From NCBI RefSeq assembly GCF_000007485.1, contig NC_004572.3:682001-746000 (forward strand): a DNA stretch of 64,000 nt. The letters run 5' to 3'. Positions within the stretch are counted from its first letter, which is position 1. Each line of letters begins with the position of its first letter. The translations under genes and the position numbers were made by a program. The notes beneath the pieces were generated by a model, which did not search any database, was not told where the DNA came from, and was given only the letters and a program-made list of their open reading frames with translations. Source of the DNA: Tropheryma whipplei str. Twist. GTDB lineage: Bacteria > Actinomycetota > Actinomycetes > Actinomycetales > Microbacteriaceae. This document shows, piece by piece, positions 16,645 through 50,978 of this stretch.

Positions 16645-19035
16645 TCACAGAGGGGTATAGGGCAAAACGTATATAAAAAGCGTATCTTTTTTCCTAATTT
16701 TAAATACATCAAGAGAAATATTTACCGTATATAGCCCAGGGCGGACATTACGATTCACCTGCCCTCTTACAACCCCAACGGCTGTGTCAATAAAAAGGCC
16801 AGAAGGTAAACCGACCCCAGGTTCGGTTCTATCTGTTTCTGTAACAGACAATGTGTAAAAGCTGGATGATGGAAGTGGAATATAGACGCTACTCTGTCCA
16901 ATTAATACACTCGTCTTGATACTCGTTGTAGATATATCGGTGTTGTATACGGTTATATACACCGCATCCACAGCAATTGTAAAAACAGCAAGAGCTGTTA
17001 TATACGCAATATACACCCCTTGGGTAATACTGGGATTTATAGATCCCGTTATATATTTTCTGTATCGATCAAGAGTAAGGCCTTTGGGTAGGCCAGATCC
17101 GGGTGATGTCAGGGTAGTGTACGTATACTGAGAAAACAACAGAAAGAATGGTGGGACAGGAAGAGAGATCGACACTCTCTTTGCCCCCAAAGATGCATAA
17201 GTATGCACAGTATTTGTCTTGAGTTGCCCCAAAACGGTAAAGATATATGTAACAACGGCGAGCTCAGGAGTTATAACAGTGGATAATGTTGTATAAACAT
17301 CCTTTGGCATGTGCTCAAAAATAGCGGTTTTGCGCGAACAGGTATTGCATATACCCTTCAGAAATACATTCGTACTACTTGTCCCGTGTTTTGAATACTG
17401 CCCGATTGTTGCTGTTCTCGCGTAGGTTACAACATATTCATACACTCCGGGCGGACCTGCAACGATTCCTGTTATAGAACGGCTTACAAGATTTAACCCG
17501 GATGGCAGACTGCCGGCTGTATGCAACAATGTCATTGCATAGCGTGATGGAAATGGTGCGGTTAGACTAAGATTCTGTCCCTGAATAAGGGTTATATACA
17601 GGCTATTGCTTTCCCTGTACGTCACATAGATCTGATATGTGGCAGTGGTATACGAGTCAGACAGCGTAAATGTATAGGTCCAATTTTTCCCAAAAAATGG
17701 ATTAACATAGCTCAGTGTTTTTCCAAAAAATGCAGTTACGACAAATTGATATAGACCGGGGGTGACGCTCTTATCTATAGACCCTGTTATCTCTCCGTTG
17801 CTTGTATTAAGGGTTAGTCCTGAGGGCAAGGAGAACATAGAGTTCATTCCATTTGTGATTACATTACTTGTGTTTATAAGAAATGATGTTGGGGTGGCAT
17901 ATGACTTGGCAAAACCAGTGCCATGAAGCCATCCATGACTATCGGTAGATGTGCGAATTATTTTTCCTGGTATAGACCAGGATGGTGAAATGGTTATGGT
18001 TGATTGATTTACAGAAACAGTAGTTGTGATATTGCTTATATTGGGTGTTAGCATAAGGTAACCGTAATACCTGATAATAGGTTCGTTTCCGCCATTACAT
18101 ATAGTGAGTTCAGAACACCATTTGTCCAAAGAGGTATTGATAAGAGCTCGATCCTGCACCTTGAGGGGCGATCTATTCACGTGGGGATTTTTTATCTGCC
18201 TATCTTGCATCTCTCTCTTAGATCTGTGAGAGGTTGTTGGGTTGTGTGTATCTATTGCATAGGTGATATGGGTGGTTGTGTCTCTGTTTATGGCTATGGC
18301 TGTTATGGGAGATGTTGGTAGGGATGAGAGATGTATCTGTCCGGTGTATCTATCTATGGTTATGTCTTTGTTTGGGTGTGTTAGAGAGAAGGTGTATCTG
18401 GAGTTTCTGAGTGATGGTATGTCTGAGAGATATGTGTTATCTATCTGTTTGTGTATGGGAACAGTTATCTTTGGTTTCTCTGTTACATGTATGTCAAAGA
18501 AGAAGATGTTACGGGTTGTTAGGAGAGCTATGAGATTGGTTGTTGTCTTTGTTATGGAGATTACTTTCTCATCTCCGTATGGGGTTGCTATGTCTGTATG
18601 AGGGAAGGTTAGGAAAGATGATGGATCTGCTTTCTTATCTGTGTAATAGAGAGATATATGTGTGTTGGTTATATATGGGACATATAGGTATGAGGATGTA
18701 TCTGTGTATGGGACATATATATGTGTCTGTGGTTGGGGTAAGAGAGATGGGGTGCAGGACAGGGTTTGTTTTGTACTGCTTGTAACAGGATCTATTAGGA
18801 GAGATACATTTGTGTTAGTTGTTACACATACTTCTTGTGTATTTGTATTACTTACTCTTGTGTATTTGGTATTAGATGAAACAGATGTAGATGAAACAGA
18901 TGATAGGAGGGATAGAGCAGGAGGTGTCTGTCTGGCAAAGGCTGTTTCATATTGTAGGGATGATAGGAGGAGAAGGGTTAATAGTAAGGTAAAGGCTTTG
19001 GTGAGGTAAGAGAGAGGGTTAGGCGATGTTGGCAT
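16645..19035 (-). CDS. WiSP family surface protein (WiSP1)
   Basis: About 796 residues. The N-terminus (MPTSPNPL, then a Leu-rich core and AFARQ) is a signal peptide. Residues to about 275 form a constant domain nearly identical to WiSP2 and WiSP3. It ends in SHRSKR, after which the sequence is unique. The variable part carries Ig-like repeats (LPSGLTLNTSNGEITGSID; later LPKGLTL and LPSGLFID copies), typical of He_PIG-type domains, and is Thr/Ser/Tyr-rich. Unlike WiSP3 it ends in YVLPYTPL with no membrane helix, so it may be secreted or truncated. ATG 19035 is preferred over TTG 19059 because a TATAAT box overlaps the latter. Known family role: surface antigens. Confidence 0.9.
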   Translation of the reverse strand: MPTSPNPLSYLTKAFTLLLTLLLLSSLQYETAFARQTPPALSLLSSVSSTSVSSNTKYTRVSNTNTQEVCVTTNTNVSLLIDPVTSSTKQTLSCTPSLLPQPQTHIYVPYTDTSSYLYVPYITNTHISLYYTDKKADPSSFLTFPHTDIATPYGDEKVISITKTTTNLIALLTTRNIFFFDIHVTEKPKITVPIHKQIDNTYLSDIPSLRNSRYTFSLTHPNKDITIDRYTGQIHLSSLPTSPITAIAINRDTTTHITYAIDTHNPTTSHRSKREMQDRQIKNPHVNRSPLKVQDRALINTSLDKWCSELTICNGGNEPIIRYYGYLMLTPNISNITTTVSVNQSTITISPSWSIPGKIIRTSTDSHGWLHGTGFAKSYATPTSFLINTSNVITNGMNSMFSLPSGLTLNTSNGEITGSIDKSVTPGLYQFVVTAFFGKTLSYVNPFFGKNWTYTFTLSDSYTTATYQIYVTYRESNSLYITLIQGQNLSLTAPFPSRYAMTLLHTAGSLPSGLNLVSRSITGIVAGPPGVYEYVVTYARTATIGQYSKHGTSSTNVFLKGICNTCSRKTAIFEHMPKDVYTTLSTVITPELAVVTYIFTVLGQLKTNTVHTYASLGAKRVSISLPVPPFFLLFSQYTYTTLTSPGSGLPKGLTLDRYRKYITGSINPSITQGVYIAYITALAVFTIAVDAVYITVYNTDISTTSIKTSVLIGQSSVYIPLPSSSFYTLSVTETDRTEPGVGLPSGLFIDTAVGVVRGQVNRNVRPGLYTVNISLDVFKIRKKDTLFIYVLPYTPL
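18213..19034 (-). repeat. WiSP 5' constant block, copy 1
   Basis: An 822-bp block that appears identical to 31176-31997 (WiSP2), offset 12,963. Its part from 18256 matches 50199-50977 (WiSP3) with one silent CAT/CAC difference. All copies are in direct orientation, so recombination would delete, duplicate or convert rather than invert. Confidence 0.93.
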
Positions 19036-19085: not shown

Positions 19086-20276
19086 GGAACATCTGCCTGA
19101 AATACTTACCTGAGAACATTTGTTCATTCACACAGACATGCATCTTAGTCTTGATAATTCAGATTATGTATATATAGGTAACCACACACATGACACAGTA
19201 ATACTGTGTTACATGTGGGCTGGTGTCGCCGGGGGTTGCGCGGGCAGGGGTTACAGGTTGCGCTGTGCCATATAGAAATGCGGATCCACCAAAGAATGAG
19301 CCTATGCCACTGAGTAGGCCGTCAAAGAGGCCTCCGGATGATTGTGTGGGGGGTGGATACTAACCAGTGTTGTTACTGCGGCAGGTAGGATGGCGTTTGC
19401 AAATGTGACTGGTAAGGGTGATAAGGGTGTCGGCAACAGCAGCATCAGCGGGACAAGGCCGGCAGTGACAGTGGAGGTAACAGGTGGGAGGGTAAGGGCT
19501 CCCCTCTGCCAGTGGTATAGATAACAGTCATTGGTGCAGATGTTGGGTTTGACGAATAACCTGATCCGCCCTGTGTTAGGTGAGTGGGGTATGTGAGGTT
19601 GGTATTTGGGCCCTCTGTGGCACTTATGCTTGTCACTGATCCATGACACAGTGTTTTTGCCAGCGCAGTGTAATCCGTGTTAACAGTAATCTGTCCTAAC
19701 ACCTGTATCTATACTTCCTGTTATGGTTCCATTGGTTCTGTCAAGGGTTACTGGTATCAATATTGATGGTTACGGTGTTACTGTCTGTGGTTAGGGTGGT
19801 TGGGCTTATTGTGTAACTGGTTATAAAACCTGTTACAGATAAGCTGACAGGTGTTGTTGTGTATATGGTTATGGTTGTGCCAATGCCTATGTGTTACATG
19901 TAATGGGTTGCACAGTATAGGTTACAGGTTACATAGCAGGGGTTACAGGTTGCGCTGTGATAGATAGAGATGTACCAAAGAGGGAGCCTATGCCACTGAG
20001 TAGGCCGTCAAAGAGGCCTCCGGATGATTGTGTGGGGGCAGCTCAGTAGCAGCGGGTTGCGCAAGTTTAGCAGGAGCAGGTTTTGCTGCAGCAGGTTAGG
20101 GTGGTTGGGTTTATTAGTGTTTGCAACAGATGTAACAGGTTACACACCGGGGGTTACAGGTAACTCTGTGGGATTAGTTGTGTCGTATATATCACAGATA
20201 CATCGGTTCTCTGATATAGATACGTATATAGTAATAGAACGTAGGAAGGTTCATTCTGTATGATTTCCATCTTTCT
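19060..20276 (-). repeat. WiSP-derived non-coding repeat tract 4
   Basis: About 1.2 kb. After the WiSP1 promoter it holds glycine-rich modules at about 19270-19345 and 19965-20035. An anchor-like TTLV segment is near 19360, and Ig-like remnants at 19700-19800 include the frame-breaking 16-bp insert (19744-19759). A short PAKP-rich fragment lies at 20041-20096, and a dyad at 20153. No gene. It ends at the tRNA cluster. Confidence 0.82.
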
Positions 20277-20349
20277 GGCCCCATCGTCTAGAGGCCTAGG
20301 ACCCCGCCCTTTCACGGCGGTAGCACGGGTTCAAATCCCGTTGGGGTCA
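20277..20349 (+). tRNA. tRNA-Glu (anticodon UUC)
   Basis: Acceptor strands GGCCCCA and TGGGGTC pair (one G-U), and the anticodon loop is CTTTCAC with TTC. The T-arm is CGGGTTCAAATCCCG. 73 nt, no encoded CCA. First gene of a Glu-Asp-Phe cluster. Confidence 0.95.
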
Positions 20350-20361
20350 CCCTTATTCTTT

Positions 20362-20435
20362 GGCCCTGTGGCGCAGTTGGTTAGCGCGCCGCCCTGTCAC
20401 GGCGGAGGTCGCGGGTTCGAGTCCCGTCAGGGTCG
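20362..20435 (+). tRNA. tRNA-Asp (anticodon GUC)
   Basis: Acceptor GGCCCTG pairs with CAGGGTC, the anticodon loop is CTGTCAC with GTC, and the discriminator is G as usual for Asp. 74 nt. Its anticodon arm differs from that of the neighbouring tRNA-Glu by one base, which matters for the chimera at 48742. Confidence 0.95.
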
Positions 20436-20440
20436 CTCAT

Positions 20441-20513
20441 GGCTCTGTAGCTCAGTTGGTAGAGCGTTCGACTGAAAATCGAAAGGTCACCGGATCGATA
20501 CCGGTCGGAGCCA
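20441..20513 (+). tRNA. tRNA-Phe (anticodon GAA), copy 1
   Basis: Acceptor GGCTCTG pairs with CGGAGCC, and the anticodon loop is CTGAAAA. 73 nt. An identical second copy lies at 48821-48893, offset 28,380, as part of a larger duplicated segment. Confidence 0.95.
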
Positions 20514-20528
20514 CAACTGTATCTCTCT

Positions 20529-21107
20529 TTATAAGAGGAAGGGGAGGGCAGCCAGTCCAGATCCTAGTAATAGACCTGATAATCCAGTGATCATCACTAA
20601 CCACCATGGGGCTGATGGTTGTGCTGATAGTTGAGTGGATTGATTATGGGTGGTGGGTTGATTAGAAAGGTCACGGCGCTTGCGTACCTTACCGGTGCTA
20701 CTTGACTGAGAAGGAGAAACAGTAAAGACATAGGTATATGTTGCAGCAATAGGGGTTGCCACAGCAGTTGTCGTGGTGTAGACGGGGGTGGGAGAATTTA
20801 CCACATAGGCAATTGCCTGTGGTCCTAAACAGGCACGACATGTACCGGATAGATAGTCACCTGTATAGACACCATTTGATCTAAGTCCTGTGGTTTTTGT
20901 GGTAGTTCCATATGTAACTGTGTATGTGGTTACAGATTGCGCAGTGTGCGTTACATGTAACACGGCGGGGTTATATGTTGCATTACAGAAAACCTGTTAC
21001 GGGTTGCACGGTTACGGGTTACACAGGTGTGAGTTACATGTAACGCTGTGGTGGTTCCATATGTAACTGTGTATGTATATGTGCCTGAGGTGGTTGGGGT
21101 TCCTGGA
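20529..21107 (-). pseudogene. WiSP C-terminal cassette (anchor-encoding fragment)
   Basis: It encodes the same C-terminus as WiSP3: Ig-like remnants, a basic KVRKRRD motif, a Ser/Gln-rich stretch and the final hydrophobic anchor (WWLVMITGLSGLLLG then ALPFLL). Up to 20927 it matches 48909-49307 with a G/A-type change at 20683 giving Arg instead of His. It has no start region. A 149-bp insertion flanked by a 23-bp direct repeat (20905-20927 and 21054-21076) breaks the module, after which the match resumes to about 21107. Best read as a silent donor cassette or the relic of a deleted WiSP gene. Confidence 0.88.
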
Positions 21108-29902: not shown

Positions 29903-32100
29903 CTAGAACCATAAAGTTAACAAAGTCAAAGCTAGGGCAAACAACCCTGGCAAAAGCGTTCGCCAATTACCAGTGAAATAATTACGAATAATACCTGACA
30001 AACTTGAATTATTTGAATTAGATCCCGAACCGGATGATGAAGCTGGCTTTTTAACTAATTTACCATAAAGATAAAACGGCAAGAAATAAACACCTCCAAC
30101 AGAAACAGCAGACATAAAAGCTCGGAAAAACTTACCACCCCAGCCAGAAAAACTAGGTAAATGGGCAGATATCTTTCTATACAAGGCCTTAATGCCAACT
30201 TGCCCATATAGAGATGCTGCTGGATAGGCATAGCTTTTCCAGTCATAACATGCATCTGAATTATGTGCTGCAGAGTAAAAAGCATTGTAGGCATCAACCA
30301 GTGTTGTTACTGCGGCAGGTAGGAGGGCGGTGGCAAGACCTGCAAGGATGCCTTGGGTTGTTGTGTGGTGGACTGGGGTGCAAGTGTGAGAGAACCAACT
30401 GTATATGGCTTTGAATGGCTTGGTTATATAGTATTTGACCCTTTGGAAGAATTTCATACTACTTAGCACAAGGGTATATACAGCAGTAACAGTTGTACTA
30501 GTAAGGGTTGTAGCAGAGGAAGTATAGGAAGGTGCAGTTGCAGTAATAGTTACTGTATATGTTCCAGGCACAATACTTGGGGTGATTGTTATATTGCCAT
30601 TGGTTTTATCAAGGGTTACTGGTATCAATATTGATGGTTACGGTGTCTGTTTTTTGACTGGATGTGTCTGTTGGGGTGGTTGGGTTTATTGCGTAACTGG
30701 TTATAAAACCTGTTACAGATAAGCTGACAGGTGTTGTTGTGTATATGGTTATGGTTGTGCCAGATAGAGATGGTGTAGTACTGGTAACAAGAAGGGTATA
30801 TGTTGCACTAACAATTGATGTTTTTGATGCAGTGGCAGTTACTACTACTGTATATATACCTTGGCTAACACCTGTATCTATACTTCCTGTTATGGTTCCA
30901 GAGGAATTAAGGGTTAGTCCTTTAGGTAGACCTGTAGCATTAGTTCCACCAGATGTAACACCTGTAGGTGTAGCTATATAACCGGATAAAGGGGCACCTT
31001 TTGACTTGGGTGTAATAGTTATAGTACTCTGACCTATAGATACACCTGTGGCTTGGTTAGATAGAGATGGTGTAGTACTGGAGCCCAGGATGGAGTTTGA
31101 GAGTCCGCCTGCAACTCCGCTTAGGCCATCGATTATGCTGCCAAAGATGCCTCCTGGGTGATCGTATGGTGGCAGCTCTCTTAGATCTGTGAGAGGTTGT
31201 TGGGTTGTGTGTATCTATTGCATAGGTGATATGGGTGGTTGTGTCTCTGTTTATGGCTATGGCTGTTATGGGAGATGTTGGTAGGGATGAGAGATGTATC
31301 TGTCCGGTGTATCTATCTATGGTTATGTCTTTGTTTGGGTGTGTTAGAGAGAAGGTGTATCTGGAGTTTCTGAGTGATGGTATGTCTGAGAGATATGTGT
31401 TATCTATCTGTTTGTGTATGGGAACAGTTATCTTTGGTTTCTCTGTTACATGTATGTCAAAGAAGAAGATGTTACGGGTTGTTAGGAGAGCTATGAGATT
31501 GGTTGTTGTCTTTGTTATGGAGATTACTTTCTCATCTCCGTATGGGGTTGCTATGTCTGTATGAGGGAAGGTTAGGAAAGATGATGGATCTGCTTTCTTA
31601 TCTGTGTAATAGAGAGATATATGTGTGTTGGTTATATATGGGACATATAGGTATGAGGATGTATCTGTGTATGGGACATATATATGTGTCTGTGGTTGGG
31701 GTAAGAGAGATGGGGTGCAGGACAGGGTTTGTTTTGTACTGCTTGTAACAGGATCTATTAGGAGAGATACATTTGTGTTAGTTGTTACACATACTTCTTG
31801 TGTATTTGTATTACTTACTCTTGTGTATTTGGTATTAGATGAAACAGATGTAGATGAAACAGATGATAGGAGGGATAGAGCAGGAGGTGTCTGTCTGGCA
31901 AAGGCTGTTTCATATTGTAGGGATGATAGGAGGAGAAGGGTTAATAGTAAGGTAAAGGCTTTGGTGAGGTAAGAGAGAGGGTTAGGCGATGTTGGCAATC
32001 CCCCCCCCCTTCTGTTTTGTTTTCTGTTTTGGGGGGTTTGAAACAGCGCACACATGCATCTAGCTACCACCTTAACCATAATTACACCCCTCGCACTCAT
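29903..32100 (-). pseudogene. WiSP family surface protein gene (WiSP2), broken by two frameshifts
   Basis: Reconstructing three minus-strand frames gives one full WiSP of about 725 residues. The first frame (from ATG 32100 or better ATG 32079 with AGGGG ahead) passes through a G10 tract into the signal peptide and constant domain, ending in RSKR. An extra base in CCTCCTGGG (about 31153, where sister modules have CCTCTGGG) shifts it. The second frame is open from there (HPGGIFGSIIDGLSG, two Ig-like units) to TGA at 30611, caused by the 16-bp insert 30612-30627. The third frame runs to the anchor (GLFALALTLLTLWF) at 29903 and a strong terminator. As it stands only a ~347-residue fragment can be made. 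Confidence 0.85.
31997..32038 (-). promoter_or_regulatory. Homopolymer G10 tract and facing C tract at the WiSP2 start
   Basis: The plus strand has ten C at 32000-32009, then about 21 bases and a run of six G. On the coding strand this is C6, spacer, G10, able to form a hairpin next to the constant-domain start. With G10 the upstream ATG (32079) is in frame with the WiSP reading frame. Confidence 0.8.
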
Positions 32101-34669: not shown

Positions 34670-35983
34670 CTAACCCTTTCTCTTAACACTTTTTCCATTA
34701 CCCGCGGGCTTTTGATTATGTGTAGCATCACTTATCTTAGACGAAACAGTATCAGTCGATACGTCACGATTTACAGATAAGTTTAAAGGGCCCTGGCCAG
34801 CCGGTGTATCGCCACCAGTAGAGTCGCGTGAATTGTTTACAGCACCGGAGGCAGTACCTTTGCCGGCGGACGGGCTACCGGATGTTGTGTGTACGGCGCC
34901 AGTTCCACTCACTTTACGGGAATTTGTGTCAGGACTAGTGCGCACAGCGGCATCATGATCTGGCAAATCACCGAACTCGTTCGACCTGAAACCTAAAAGG
35001 CTGATTATTTTATTCTCGATCTCATCCGCGACGCTCTTATTCTCTAAGAGAAACCGACGAGCATTCTCCTTACCCTGCCCCAACTGATCATCGCCATAGA
35101 CGTACCACGATCCTGATTTTTTAATGATTCCCCTATCAACTGCAAAATCGATCAAGCCGCTTTCTCGGGAAATACCAACCCCGTACAGAACGTCGAACTC
35201 GGCCTGTTTGAAGGGCGGTGCAACTTTGTTTTTCACCACCTTAACGCGCGTACGGTTTCCAACAGCCTCTGTGCCCTGCTTGATGGTTTCGACTCGACGA
35301 ATATCAAGCCTAACTGAAGCATAAAACTTTAGAGCACGGCCGCCGGGAGTTGTTTCTGGACTGCCAAAAAAAACACCAACCTTTTCACGAAGTTGATTGA
35401 TAAATATAGCGGTCGTTCCGGTCTGATTCAGCCCGGATGTTATCTTTCTCAGAGCCTGAGACATGAGCCGTGCCTGGAGGCCAACATGCATATCCCCCAT
35501 ATCACCCTCAAGTTCAGCTCGCGGGACAAGCGCAGCAACGGAATCTATGACAATCAGGTCAATTGCTGTTGAGCGAATTAACATATCCGATATCTCCAAT
35601 GCCTGCTCGCCGCTATCAGGTTGGCTGACAAGAAGCGCATCAATATCAACCCCAAGTTTTTTTGCATACTCCGGATCAAGTGCATGCTCGGCATCTATGA
35701 ACGCAGCAATGCCACCAGCGCGCTGGACACTTGCTATTGCGTGTAGAGTCAAAGTGGTTTTACCGCTTGATTCAGGACCGTATATCTCAACAATCCGGCC
35801 GCGAGGCAGACCTCCAACCCCAAGTGCATAATCAAGTGCAATGGAACCAGTTGGTATAACGTCTATATACGCTTTCTGGGCATCGTTCATGCGCATAACA
35901 GCGCCTTTGCCATATTGGCGATCTATATTTGCTAAAGCAAGCTCTAGCGCGCGCGTGCGATTTATCTGATCGTTAGATGACAC
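34670..35983 (-). CDS. recA: Recombinase RecA with extended C-terminal tail
   Basis: RecA catalyses strand exchange and would be the main enzyme for recombination among the WiSP repeats. Walker A is [21 protein letters not shown] and the [11 protein letters not shown]2 segment follow. The GTG at 35983 (VSSNDQ) is favoured over GTG 36013 because the family core starts here and GGGAGG precedes it by 12 bp. That gives 437 residues, against about 350. The extra ~95 residues are a Ser/Gly/Asp-rich tail ending in KSVKRKG. I saw no convincing LexA box upstream. Confidence 0.95.
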
Positions 35984-36177
35984 CGTTATTCCAAACCTCC
36001 CGTTTCCGTACACAAGAAAAATACATGAATACCGGGTAAAAAACTAGCAAAAACACCATCTTGTGCATAAGTTAACGTCCACAAGGATAACAAAACCTCA
36101 CACCCGGGCGATACGTTGAGGTGAATAATCATAAAAGAGTATTTCACAGAAGGGATTACAATTTTCAGGCATCAAGC

Positions 36178-47435: not shown

Positions 47436-48764
47436 GTGGGCGGTGCAGGTCTCCTAACAGACCAATACGAGTTGTCGATGGTCAACGCAGCACGAATATC
47501 AGGGATAGCTGCTAAAGAATGTGTTTTTGAGGTTTATTCTCGCGCATTGCCACCTGGCAGGCCATTTGGTGTGTTTGCAGGCCTTGAGAGGCTGCTGGAA
47601 AAAATCGAAAATTTCTCCTTTGCAGATGACGAAATTACATGGCTTAGAGAAAAGAATATCGTTGATAATGAGACACTTGACTGGCTCCGGGGGTATAGCT
47701 TTTCTGGGTCAATTTCTGGCCACAAAGAGGGGGAAATCTTTTTCCCCAATACACCCGTTCTAACTGTTAGAGCACCATTTGCAGAAGCAGTAGTTCTCGA
47801 AACCCTGATCCTAAGTTGCATAAATTTTGATAGCGCTATTGCGTCAGCGGCGGCACAACTTGTGTATCGCGCAAAAAACAAACCAGTTTATGAAATGGGC
47901 TCCAGAAGAACAAATGAACAGGCCGCTGTAGCAGCGGCGCGGGCTGCGTACATTGCTGGGTTTGCCGCAACAAGCAATCTGGCAGCTGGGAAGATTTGGG
48001 ATATACCAACCGTTGGAACTATGGGTCATGCATTTATACTTGCTCATAAAACGGAGAGTGAAGCTTTTTATGCACAGCTCAAACAGGGTGGGGGAAACAA
48101 TATAACCCTCTTGATTGATACATACGATATCCAGGAAGCAATTGACAGTGCGGTAACTGTCGCAGGCAAAAATCTTGCAGCTGTAAGAATAGATTCGGGA
48201 AACCTACCAGAAGTGGTGCACGATGTACGCAGAAAGCTCGACCTCGCGGGTGCAACTGAGACAAAGATCATTCTCACAGGCGACCTTGATGAGGCCTCAA
48301 TTAGGCTCGTAAGCACCGCACCGGTTGATGCACTCGGGGTTGGAACATCTCTGGTAACTGCGGGAGGATTTCCATCTGCAGGCTTCGTTCATAAACCGGT
48401 GGCATGCAGAGAAAAAAACAGATGGAGAATGCTTTCGAAAAAATCAAAAAACAAAGTTAGCACCGGCGGGCAAAAAAATGTCCAAAGAGTTCTTGACAAA
48501 AACAAGAAGATTATCAAAGAGCAAGTCCTCGTATTTGATCCCGATAATCCCCCAGTGACAACCTATGACACGAATGTATTACAGATTACGAGTGAACATA
48601 TAAGGCACGGAAAAAGAGTTGCAATAAACTCAACAAATGAAATAAGGGCGTATCACAAATCGGTTATCAATCAAATCCCAGAAGAAGTATTCAACCTTGA
48701 GGGCAAAATAAATACCGAGCGGATCTCCTGGCATAGTGTGCAAGGCCATCGTCTAGAGGCCTAG
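47436..48764 (+). CDS. pncB: Nicotinate phosphoribosyltransferase PncB, C-terminus supplied by tRNA-derived DNA
   Basis: It converts nicotinate and PRPP to nicotinate mononucleotide in NAD salvage. LLTDQYELSM at residues 6-15, EMGSRRTNEQAAV, RIDSGNLPEV and the later LGVGTSLVTAGG are family blocks. 442 residues, near normal. The last six codons and the TAG stop lie in sequence identical to the start of tRNA-Glu (CCATCGTCTAGAGGCCTAG), so the natural 3' end was replaced when the tRNA-WiSP segment joined. Few residues seem lost and the enzyme is probably functional. GTG start at 47436. Confidence 0.93.
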   Translation: MGGAGLLTDQYELSMVNAARISGIAAKECVFEVYSRALPPGRPFGVFAGLERLLEKIENFSFADDEITWLREKNIVDNETLDWLRGYSFSGSISGHKEGEIFFPNTPVLTVRAPFAEAVVLETLILSCINFDSAIASAAAQLVYRAKNKPVYEMGSRRTNEQAAVAAARAAYIAGFAATSNLAAGKIWDIPTVGTMGHAFILAHKTESEAFYAQLKQGGGNNITLLIDTYDIQEAIDSAVTVAGKNLAAVRIDSGNLPEVVHDVRRKLDLAGATETKIILTGDLDEASIRLVSTAPVDALGVGTSLVTAGGFPSAGFVHKPVACREKNRWRMLSKKSKNKVSTGGQKNVQRVLDKNKKIIKEQVLVFDPDNPPVTTYDTNVLQITSEHIRHGKRVAINSTNEIRAYHKSVINQIPEEVFNLEGKINTERISWHSVQGHRLEA

Positions 48765-48815
48765 GACCCCGCCCTTTCACGGCGGAGGTCGCGGGTTCGA
48801 GTCCCGTCAGGGTCG
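48742..48815 (+). pseudogene. Chimeric tRNA relic: 5' half of tRNA-Glu joined to 3' half of tRNA-Asp
   Basis: Bases 48746-48785 equal tRNA-Glu from its acceptor end through the anticodon arm (anticodon TTC). From there to 48815 the sequence equals the 3' half of tRNA-Asp. The junction lies in the nearly identical anticodon arms and removes 85 bp relative to 20281-20435. The acceptor strands (AAGGCCA against CAGGGTC) pair at only two positions, so it cannot fold as a tRNA. Confidence 0.92.
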
Positions 48816-48820
48816 CTCAT

Positions 48821-48893
48821 GGCTCTGTAGCTCAGTTGGTAGAGCGTTCGACTGAAAATCGAAAGGTCACCGGATCGATACCGGTCGGAGCCA
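48821..48893 (+). tRNA. tRNA-Phe (anticodon GAA), copy 2
   Basis: Identical to 20441-20513, with the same flanks on the 3' side. It is part of the duplicated tRNA-WiSP segment and structurally intact. Confidence 0.94.
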
Positions 48894-48908
48894 CAACTGT
48901 ATCTCTCT

Positions 48909-50978
48909 TTATAAGAGGAAGGGGAGGGCAGCCAGTCCAGATCCTAGTAATAGACCTGATAATCCAGTGATCATCACTAACCACCATGGGGCTGATGGTT
49001 GTGCTGATAGTTGAGTGGATTGATTATGGGTGGTGGGTTGATTAGAAAGGTCACGGCGCTTGTGTACCTTACCGGTGCTACTTGACTGAGAAGGAGAAAC
49101 AGTAAAGACATAGGTATATGTTGCAGCAATAGGGGTTGCCACAGCAGTTGTCGTGGTGTAGACGGGGGTGGGAGAATTTACCACATAGGCAATTGCCTGT
49201 GGTCCTAAACAGGCACGACATGTACCGGATAGATAGTCACCTGTATAGACACCATTTGATCTAAGTCCTGTGGTTTTTGTGGTAGTTCCATATGTAACTG
49301 TGTATGTATATGTGCCTGAGGTGGTTGGGGTTCCTGTTATGGTTCCATTGGCAAAGGACAGTCCTGAGGGTAATGTACCAGTAGAACCTACAGGGGTCAA
49401 TGTGTAGGAGGATAGGGTGGTAGGTAGTGAAACAGATACTGTCTGACCCTGTGTAACAGTGGTAGAGGTGGAACTGGAAGTTCTTGAGGTTACAAGGAAC
49501 TGGACCTGATATGTGGCCTTATAGCCATTCGTTGTGCTTATGGTAAACGTATGCATTCCACCAAATCTTACAGTGGTTTTTAGTCTCACCGTTACAGTAA
49601 GTTTGTATAGACCGGGGGTGACGCTGCTATCTATAGACCCTGTTATGGCACCATTGGTTGCATTAAGGGTTAGATTCCCTGGGAGCATATTAGTCGGTGG
49701 GGGCACACTTTTGTATAGCGAGACCCAGTCAGTGTTCCAGTCAGTGGCGGTGAAGTACTCATTAATAAAGAAGTCAGTAGGAGTGAAATATTCATTCAAG
49801 ACGATGACGTGTGTTAGGTTTACGCGCCTGCCTGGGAAAAAGCTTGTCTTGAAAAAGCGCTTGGGCGTTGACCATGTTGGGGAAATGGATATTTTCTGAC
49901 CCTGTGAAACAGTGGTTGTTACGTTAGACAGGGTGGGAGTTAATAACTGGGTTCCATAGAACAACGGAGCGCGGGTTGGGGCATAGCAGGGAAAGCCAAC
50001 AGGGAAGCCAAGATTGCAGTAATTAGCCGCATCAGTGTGTCGAGTTGGATATTGAGGTTTTTGAGGGTTGGGTCGACCGGGATAACTGGGAAAGGGAACC
50101 CATGCGCCGGAGAAGTGTGGGTCACTGGGATAGACGGGTAAAGGTCCTCCGACACTTACATGTGAGCGCTTCGTGCGAACACGGGGTTCATCAGCCAATG
50201 CATAGGTGATATGGGTGGTTGTGTCTCTGTTTATGGCTATGGCTGTTATGGGAGATGTTGGTAGGGATGAGAGATGTATCTGTCCGGTGTATCTATCTAT
50301 GGTTATGTCTTTGTTTGGGTGTGTTAGAGAGAAGGTGTATCTGGAGTTTCTGAGTGATGGTATGTCTGAGAGATATGTGTTATCTATCTGTTTGTGTATG
50401 GGAACAGTTATCTTTGGTTTCTCTGTTACATGTATGTCAAAGAAGAAGATGTTACGGGTTGTTAGGAGAGCTATGAGATTGGTTGTTGTCTTTGTTATGG
50501 AGATTACTTTCTCATCTCCGTATGGGGTTGCTATGTCTGTATGAGGGAAGGTTAGGAAAGATGATGGATCTGCTTTCTTATCTGTGTAATAGAGAGATAT
50601 ATGTGTGTTGGTTATATATGGGACATATAGGTATGAGGATGTATCTGTGTATGGGACATATATGTGTGTCTGTGGTTGGGGTAAGAGAGATGGGGTGCAG
50701 GACAGGGTTTGTTTTGTACTGCTTGTAACAGGATCTATTAGGAGAGATACATTTGTGTTAGTTGTTACACATACTTCTTGTGTATTTGTATTACTTACTC
50801 TTGTGTATTTGGTATTAGATGAAACAGATGTAGATGAAACAGATGATAGGAGGGATAGAGCAGGAGGTGTCTGTCTGGCAAAGGCTGTTTCATATTGTAG
50901 GGATGATAGGAGGAGAAGGGTTAATAGTAAGGTAAAGGCTTTGGTGAGGTAAGAGAGAGGGTTAGGCGATGTTGGCAA
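48909..50978 (-). CDS. WiSP family surface protein (WiSP3), phase-variable start
   Basis: 689 residues from TTG 50978. Signal peptide, constant domain (to about 260) nearly identical to WiSP1 and WiSP2, then PRVRTKR at the junction. The variable part is Pro/Tyr-rich, then Ig-like units (LPGNLTLNATNGAITGSID and LPSGLSFANGTITGTP). The C-terminus has KVHKRRD, a Ser/Gln-rich linker and a membrane anchor (WWLVMITGLSGLLLG). The body is intact. A G9 tract (50980-50988) precedes TTG; in frame with it upstream is a stop. With one more G, ATG 51055 (behind GAGGT) would read into the protein. In this sequence only the weak TTG start can work. Confidence 0.9.
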   Translation of the reverse strand: MPTSPNPLSYLTKAFTLLLTLLLLSSLQYETAFARQTPPALSLLSSVSSTSVSSNTKYTRVSNTNTQEVCVTTNTNVSLLIDPVTSSTKQTLSCTPSLLPQPQTHIYVPYTDTSSYLYVPYITNTHISLYYTDKKADPSSFLTFPHTDIATPYGDEKVISITKTTTNLIALLTTRNIFFFDIHVTEKPKITVPIHKQIDNTYLSDIPSLRNSRYTFSLTHPNKDITIDRYTGQIHLSSLPTSPITAIAINRDTTTHITYALADEPRVRTKRSHVSVGGPLPVYPSDPHFSGAWVPFPSYPGRPNPQKPQYPTRHTDAANYCNLGFPVGFPCYAPTRAPLFYGTQLLTPTLSNVTTTVSQGQKISISPTWSTPKRFFKTSFFPGRRVNLTHVIVLNEYFTPTDFFINEYFTATDWNTDWVSLYKSVPPPTNMLPGNLTLNATNGAITGSIDSSVTPGLYKLTVTVRLKTTVRFGGMHTFTISTTNGYKATYQVQFLVTSRTSSSTSTTVTQGQTVSVSLPTTLSSYTLTPVGSTGTLPSGLSFANGTITGTPTTSGTYTYTVTYGTTTKTTGLRSNGVYTGDYLSGTCRACLGPQAIAYVVNSPTPVYTTTTAVATPIAATYTYVFTVSPSQSSSTGKVHKRRDLSNQPTTHNQSTQLSAQPSAPWWLVMITGLSGLLLGSGLAALPFLL

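Follow-up and report, generated by a model that had tools for sequence, protein, structure and literature searches.

The window analysed here comprises 64,000 nucleotides of Tropheryma whipplei str. Twist, the bacterium of Whipple's disease, corresponding to positions 682001-746000 of its closed, single-contig genome of 927,303 bp. Within it, the plus-strand gene pncB (47436-48764), which encodes nicotinate phosphoribosyltransferase, runs into a tRNA-like sequence (48744-48816, plus strand) that ARAGORN labels as tRNA-Glu. An intact tRNA-Phe(GAA) follows (48821-48894, plus strand), and 14 bp beyond it lies, in convergent orientation, a WiSP family gene with a WND domain (48909-50978, minus strand). 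The window also contains an intact Glu-Asp-Phe cluster (20276-20514), composed of tRNA-Glu(UUC) (20276-20352), tRNA-Asp(GUC) (20362-20436), and tRNA-Phe (20441-20514), all on the plus strand and adjoining a WiSP 3'-end ORF (20529-20963, minus strand). The first two genes of this cluster are the parents of the tRNA-like sequence next to pncB.

Two tRNA genes joined in the anticodon arm

The tRNA-like sequence is made of two segments, each of which is identical to a different tRNA gene. The 5' part (48746-48785, plus strand) includes an acceptor remnant, the D arm, and the anticodon arm, and it matches positions 20281-20320 of tRNA-Glu(UUC) at 40 of 40 nucleotides. The 3' part (48777-48820, plus strand) includes the 3' anticodon stem, the variable loop, the T arm, and the 3' acceptor strand of tRNA-Asp, plus the spacer, and is equal to 20397-20440. 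From there, the match continues without gaps through tRNA-Phe and into the WiSP 3' end, forming a duplicated block (48777-49307, common to 20397-20927) in which the sole further mismatch is a private SNP at 49063. An exact match of 40 nt joined to a near-exact match of 500 bp excludes chance as the source of this arrangement.

The two parts overlap by the 9-bp sequence TCACGGCGG (48777-48785), which lies within the anticodon arms common to tRNA-Glu and tRNA-Asp. These arms, CCGCCCTTTCACGGCGG and CCGCCCTGTCACGGCGG, agree at 16 of 17 positions. The base preceding the overlap (48776) is a T, the first anticodon base, and is of the Glu type, which places the crossover in the 9-bp identity. Between the chimera and the intact cluster, the offset shifts by exactly 85 bp, corresponding to positions 20321-20405 on the plus strand. 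If the crossover is set at the other end of the common arm segment, the same loss reads as 20312-20396. An earlier note on this DNA had described a 5' half with the Glu anticodon followed by a 3' half from tRNA-Asp, with 85 bp missing as the result of recombination between the anticodon arms. Both the composition and the length of the missing segment were borne out, and recombination or slippage at the 9-bp identity accounts exactly for the loss. The note had put the locus at 48742-48815; the chimera is indeed there, and the tRNA-like piece itself spans 48744-48816.

Recombination between the anticodon arms is nevertheless only half of the history, as it leaves unexplained a second breakpoint at the pncB end. 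Identity of the Glu part to the intact gene ends at 48746 (20281 in the cluster), and leftward of this point pncB replaces the cluster's own 5' flank. The acceptor remnant of the chimera reads GGCC-ATCG, as compared to GGCCCC-ATCG in the intact tRNA-Glu. Judged from these letters, the left break lies either inside the Glu acceptor stem or at the first base of the stem, with two C's lost. This second breakpoint suggests that the cluster copy is itself a truncated duplication carried along with the WiSP 3' end.

The junction also affects the end of pncB. Its stop codon (TAG, 48762-48764) falls inside the D loop of the chimera, and its final residues (about GHRLEA) are translated across the junction into tRNA-Glu sequence. 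In relatives, the pncB protein stops at or near the position of the Trp in ...TERISW, and that of T. whipplei adds HSVQG-HRLEA. Provision of this stop codon by the D-loop sequence is the only visible effect of the chimera. The own stop codon of pncB was apparently lost, leaving a protein some ten residues longer than those of relatives, with a tRNA-derived end.

Structure and coding status of the chimera

When searched with Infernal against the Rfam tRNA model, the chimera scored 34.9 bits, which is above the gathering cut-off, and aligned to model positions 10-63 only. Within these positions, the D, anticodon, and T arms and their loops are present and all pairs are formed. It is the lowest scoring of the 50 above-cut-off tRNA matches of the genome, the other 49 being full length with at least 52.2 bits. 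The difference lies in the acceptor stem. In the canonical register, the acceptor strands form 2 of 7 pairs, while the shifted register used by ARAGORN gives 5 of 7, at the cost of linker bases 8-9; random 7-mers give 5 pairs in 8% of cases. The claim that no acceptor stem can form therefore holds in the canonical register and is too strong for the shifted one. An acceptor stem is also missing from the minimum-energy fold, and in neither register is the 7-bp stem of a functional tRNA found together with the two-base linker 8-9. Without a matched acceptor stem, the product should be neither matured nor charged, as far as its predicted structure indicates. Considering this structure, unfit for a canonical tRNA, and the intact parents present elsewhere, we regard 48744-48816 with high confidence as a dead chimeric tRNA pseudogene, a recombination scar next to a duplicated WiSP tail.

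The mixed 3' half is not in itself what condemns the chimera. A search for the chimeric junction in 84,980 species returned, outside T. whipplei, only apparently complete tRNA-Glu genes of Armatimonadota. In eight genomes of this phylum, tRNA-Glu(UUC) carries exactly the anticodon-variable-T-arm sequence of the chimera in apparently complete genes, and the acceptor strands look matched in the three that were inspected. Such a 3' half is thus tolerable in principle, so that the junction itself is compatible with function and the defect is the mismatched acceptor. The anticodon-variable-T-arm sequence of these Armatimonadota genes is of the tRNA-Asp type.

These genes lend some plausibility to a functional, non-canonical tRNA-Glu with the shifted 5/7 acceptor stem, as do acceptance by ARAGORN, an Rfam score exceeding the gathering cut-off, and the GG-CC pairs at the end of the stem. 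Nonetheless, such a stem uses up linker bases 8-9 and still leaves two mismatches, the score falls below those of all other tRNA genes, intact copies exist, and the region is reported to be deleted in strain DIG15 (PMC2078596), making a working tRNA very improbable. An assembly error, in which a full cluster was collapsed or misjoined at this locus, is just as hard to credit. In its favour, the sequences of both parents are repeated almost perfectly in the genome, and a collapsed full cluster is what the earlier note had named as fatal to its reading. Yet the left junction to pncB is unique, the acceptor remnant differs by two bases, the SNP at 49063 is private to this copy, and a single Sanger read would easily span the chimera, in a genome closed as a single contig. 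The dead pseudogene hence remains the preferred reading.

Promoter and terminator consensus scans of both loci gave no matches and were uninformative. A match to YrlA (Y-RNA-like) across the chimera and tRNA-Phe reached 38.4 bits, below the 69-bit threshold, and was rejected as the tRNA parts account for it.

tRNA clusters, WiSP genes, and the origin of the locus

A second complete Glu-Asp-Phe cluster is located at 185,165-185,403 of the genome, on the minus strand. The genome thereby holds three copies of tRNA-Phe with identical scores, and two each of tRNA-Asp and tRNA-Glu(UUC). The tRNA-Phe downstream of the chimera is intact, as had been noted earlier, and is one of three copies rather than two, the additional one being that of the 185.2-kb cluster. 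Each of the three copies of the tRNA cluster is convergent with a WiSP reading frame and adjoins its 3' end. A 913-bp arm containing the intact cluster of the window (19697-20609) is 100% identical to an inverted copy at 185.1-186.0 kb. These copies are 517 kb apart and span the whole cluster, which makes this perfect inverted repeat a candidate crossover site for a large inversion.

The 185-kb locus is probably the ancestral site of the cluster, since its divergent upstream neighbour, an NlpC/P60 gene (8400-9632 of the stretch examined there), encodes a protein of which 10 of the 11 relatives examined have a related one encoded next to their own Glu-Asp-Phe cluster. Across the family, the cluster gave matches in all 150 sampled genomes, with the full-length ones being the best. 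Meanwhile, the relatives scanned all lack tRNAs up to a distance of about 1.5 kb from pncB, so that the presence of tRNAs there is derived. The chimeric junction, searched with the diagnostic T fixed, was found in its own genome and in none of 299 other family genomes, in a collection with one genome for the genus Tropheryma. When two mismatches were allowed, ordinary tRNA-Asp genes appeared among the matches listed. Taken together, the family-wide cluster, the tRNA-free surroundings of pncB in relatives, and the restricted junction indicate that the pncB-side copy is derived in the T. whipplei lineage.

Based on these findings, we propose the following history. The ancestral Glu-Asp-Phe cluster became joined to a gene for a WiSP surface protein at its 3' end, as the anatomy of the loci shows. 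A segment made up of the cluster and the WiSP tail would then have been copied to a place directly after pncB, with the observed break in the tRNA-Glu acceptor stem. Within the new copy, the anticodon arms of Glu and Asp, being almost the same, may have slipped or recombined and so lost 85 bp, with the fusion of the Glu 5' half to the Asp 3' half as the outcome. With two intact copies each of Glu(UUC) and Asp elsewhere, the chimera would have been free to decay. We infer the order of duplication and deletion, as well as the donor copy. Nothing in the analysis points to selection for the chimera.

The same dead pseudogene could also have arisen in one step, by template switching, with tRNA-Glu as the first target and the anticodon arm of Asp as the second, during the event that placed the WiSP gene by pncB and with no full intermediate. 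Both breakpoints are in short repeats or microhomologies at most 40 bp apart, and no intermediate is known. However, a simple deletion between direct repeats already yields the 85-bp loss, and template switching is without direct evidence, so we consider this route possible but the less likely one. A further, very unlikely origin is the integration of a mobile element into tRNA-Glu, with the chimera as what is left of its attachment site. In prokaryotes, fragments of tRNA genes are known to arise through element integration (PMC9897764), but the fragment is here a 5' half joined within the anticodon arm to another tRNA, and the homology extends far into the WiSP gene. No integrase was recognised by eye between the copies in the ORF listing, where the recognisable proteins were housekeeping and WiSP. 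We thus retain duplication followed by deletion between the anticodon arms.

The WiSP gene beside the chimera carries at its 5' end a WND repeat of about 764 bp (50199-50962), which has seven long copies in the genome that are nearly 100% identical. These copies, of 720-764 bp, are found in the window at 18256-19019, 31219-31982, and 50199-50962, and in the genome at 182333, 271609, 777666, and 871829. Such practically complete identity implies that gene conversion among them may be ongoing. We tentatively propose that the tRNA cluster, about 14 bp off the WiSP 3' ends in three places, and the 5' WND repeat act together as a homology anchor by which WiSP genes are shuffled or inverted. The 913-bp pair would be one of the crossover sites, and tRNA dosage and broken tRNAs would be by-products of variation at the cell surface. 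This is a possibility to which we give less than even weight.

Relation to strain DIG15 and to other chimeric tRNAs

The ORFs at 31057-32100 (1,044 nt) and 48909-50978 (2,070 nt) have exactly the sizes of TWT608 and TWT624 in PMC2078596. According to the same paper, TWT608-TWT624 is absent from DIG15, a viable isolate, in a 19-kb deletion. These WiSP genes bound a deletion that removes the chimera locus. The interval reported as missing holds the chimera and the adjoining third tRNA-Phe, both of which are thus dispensable. The reported interval also includes recA (34670-36013), along with ftsK, thyX, pgsA, and miaA, which is surprising for a viable isolate.

Chimeric tRNA pseudogenes at points of rearrangement were already known, and the T. 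whipplei chimera is a new example. In the rice plastid, two tRNA genes were fused by illegitimate recombination into an inactive pseudogene (reported in 1989, cited in PMC12371153). The rice case resembles ours in being an inactive fusion of tRNAs at a genome rearrangement point. It differs in being an inversion endpoint, whereas in T. whipplei we see a bacterial duplication in which two neighbouring genes of the cluster were joined by a deletion between them. In Rickettsia peacockii, a chimeric tRNA gene is found at the junction of a tra cluster (PMC2791219). There too, the chimera marks a rearrangement junction in the reduced genome of a host-restricted bacterium, but it is tied to the integration of a mobile element, while that of T. 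whipplei is tied to the duplication of a surface-protein gene.

The listing of partial, non-canonical tRNA genes as canonical is a documented problem (van der Gulik et al. 2023, PMC9897764). Similarly to those fragments, the chimera is a defective tRNA accepted by prediction software, and the predicted extra tRNA-Glu, as a pseudogene, should be dropped from tRNA counts. The chimera is also a readable scar, which shows that the rearrangements linked to WiSP genes, by which strains of T. whipplei differ, carry tRNA clusters with them. It might be of use as a marker for strains. Copies of the tRNA cluster at WiSP 3' ends, of which we found no mention in the available portion of PMC2078596, are a by-product of this analysis that is more interesting than the chimera itself.
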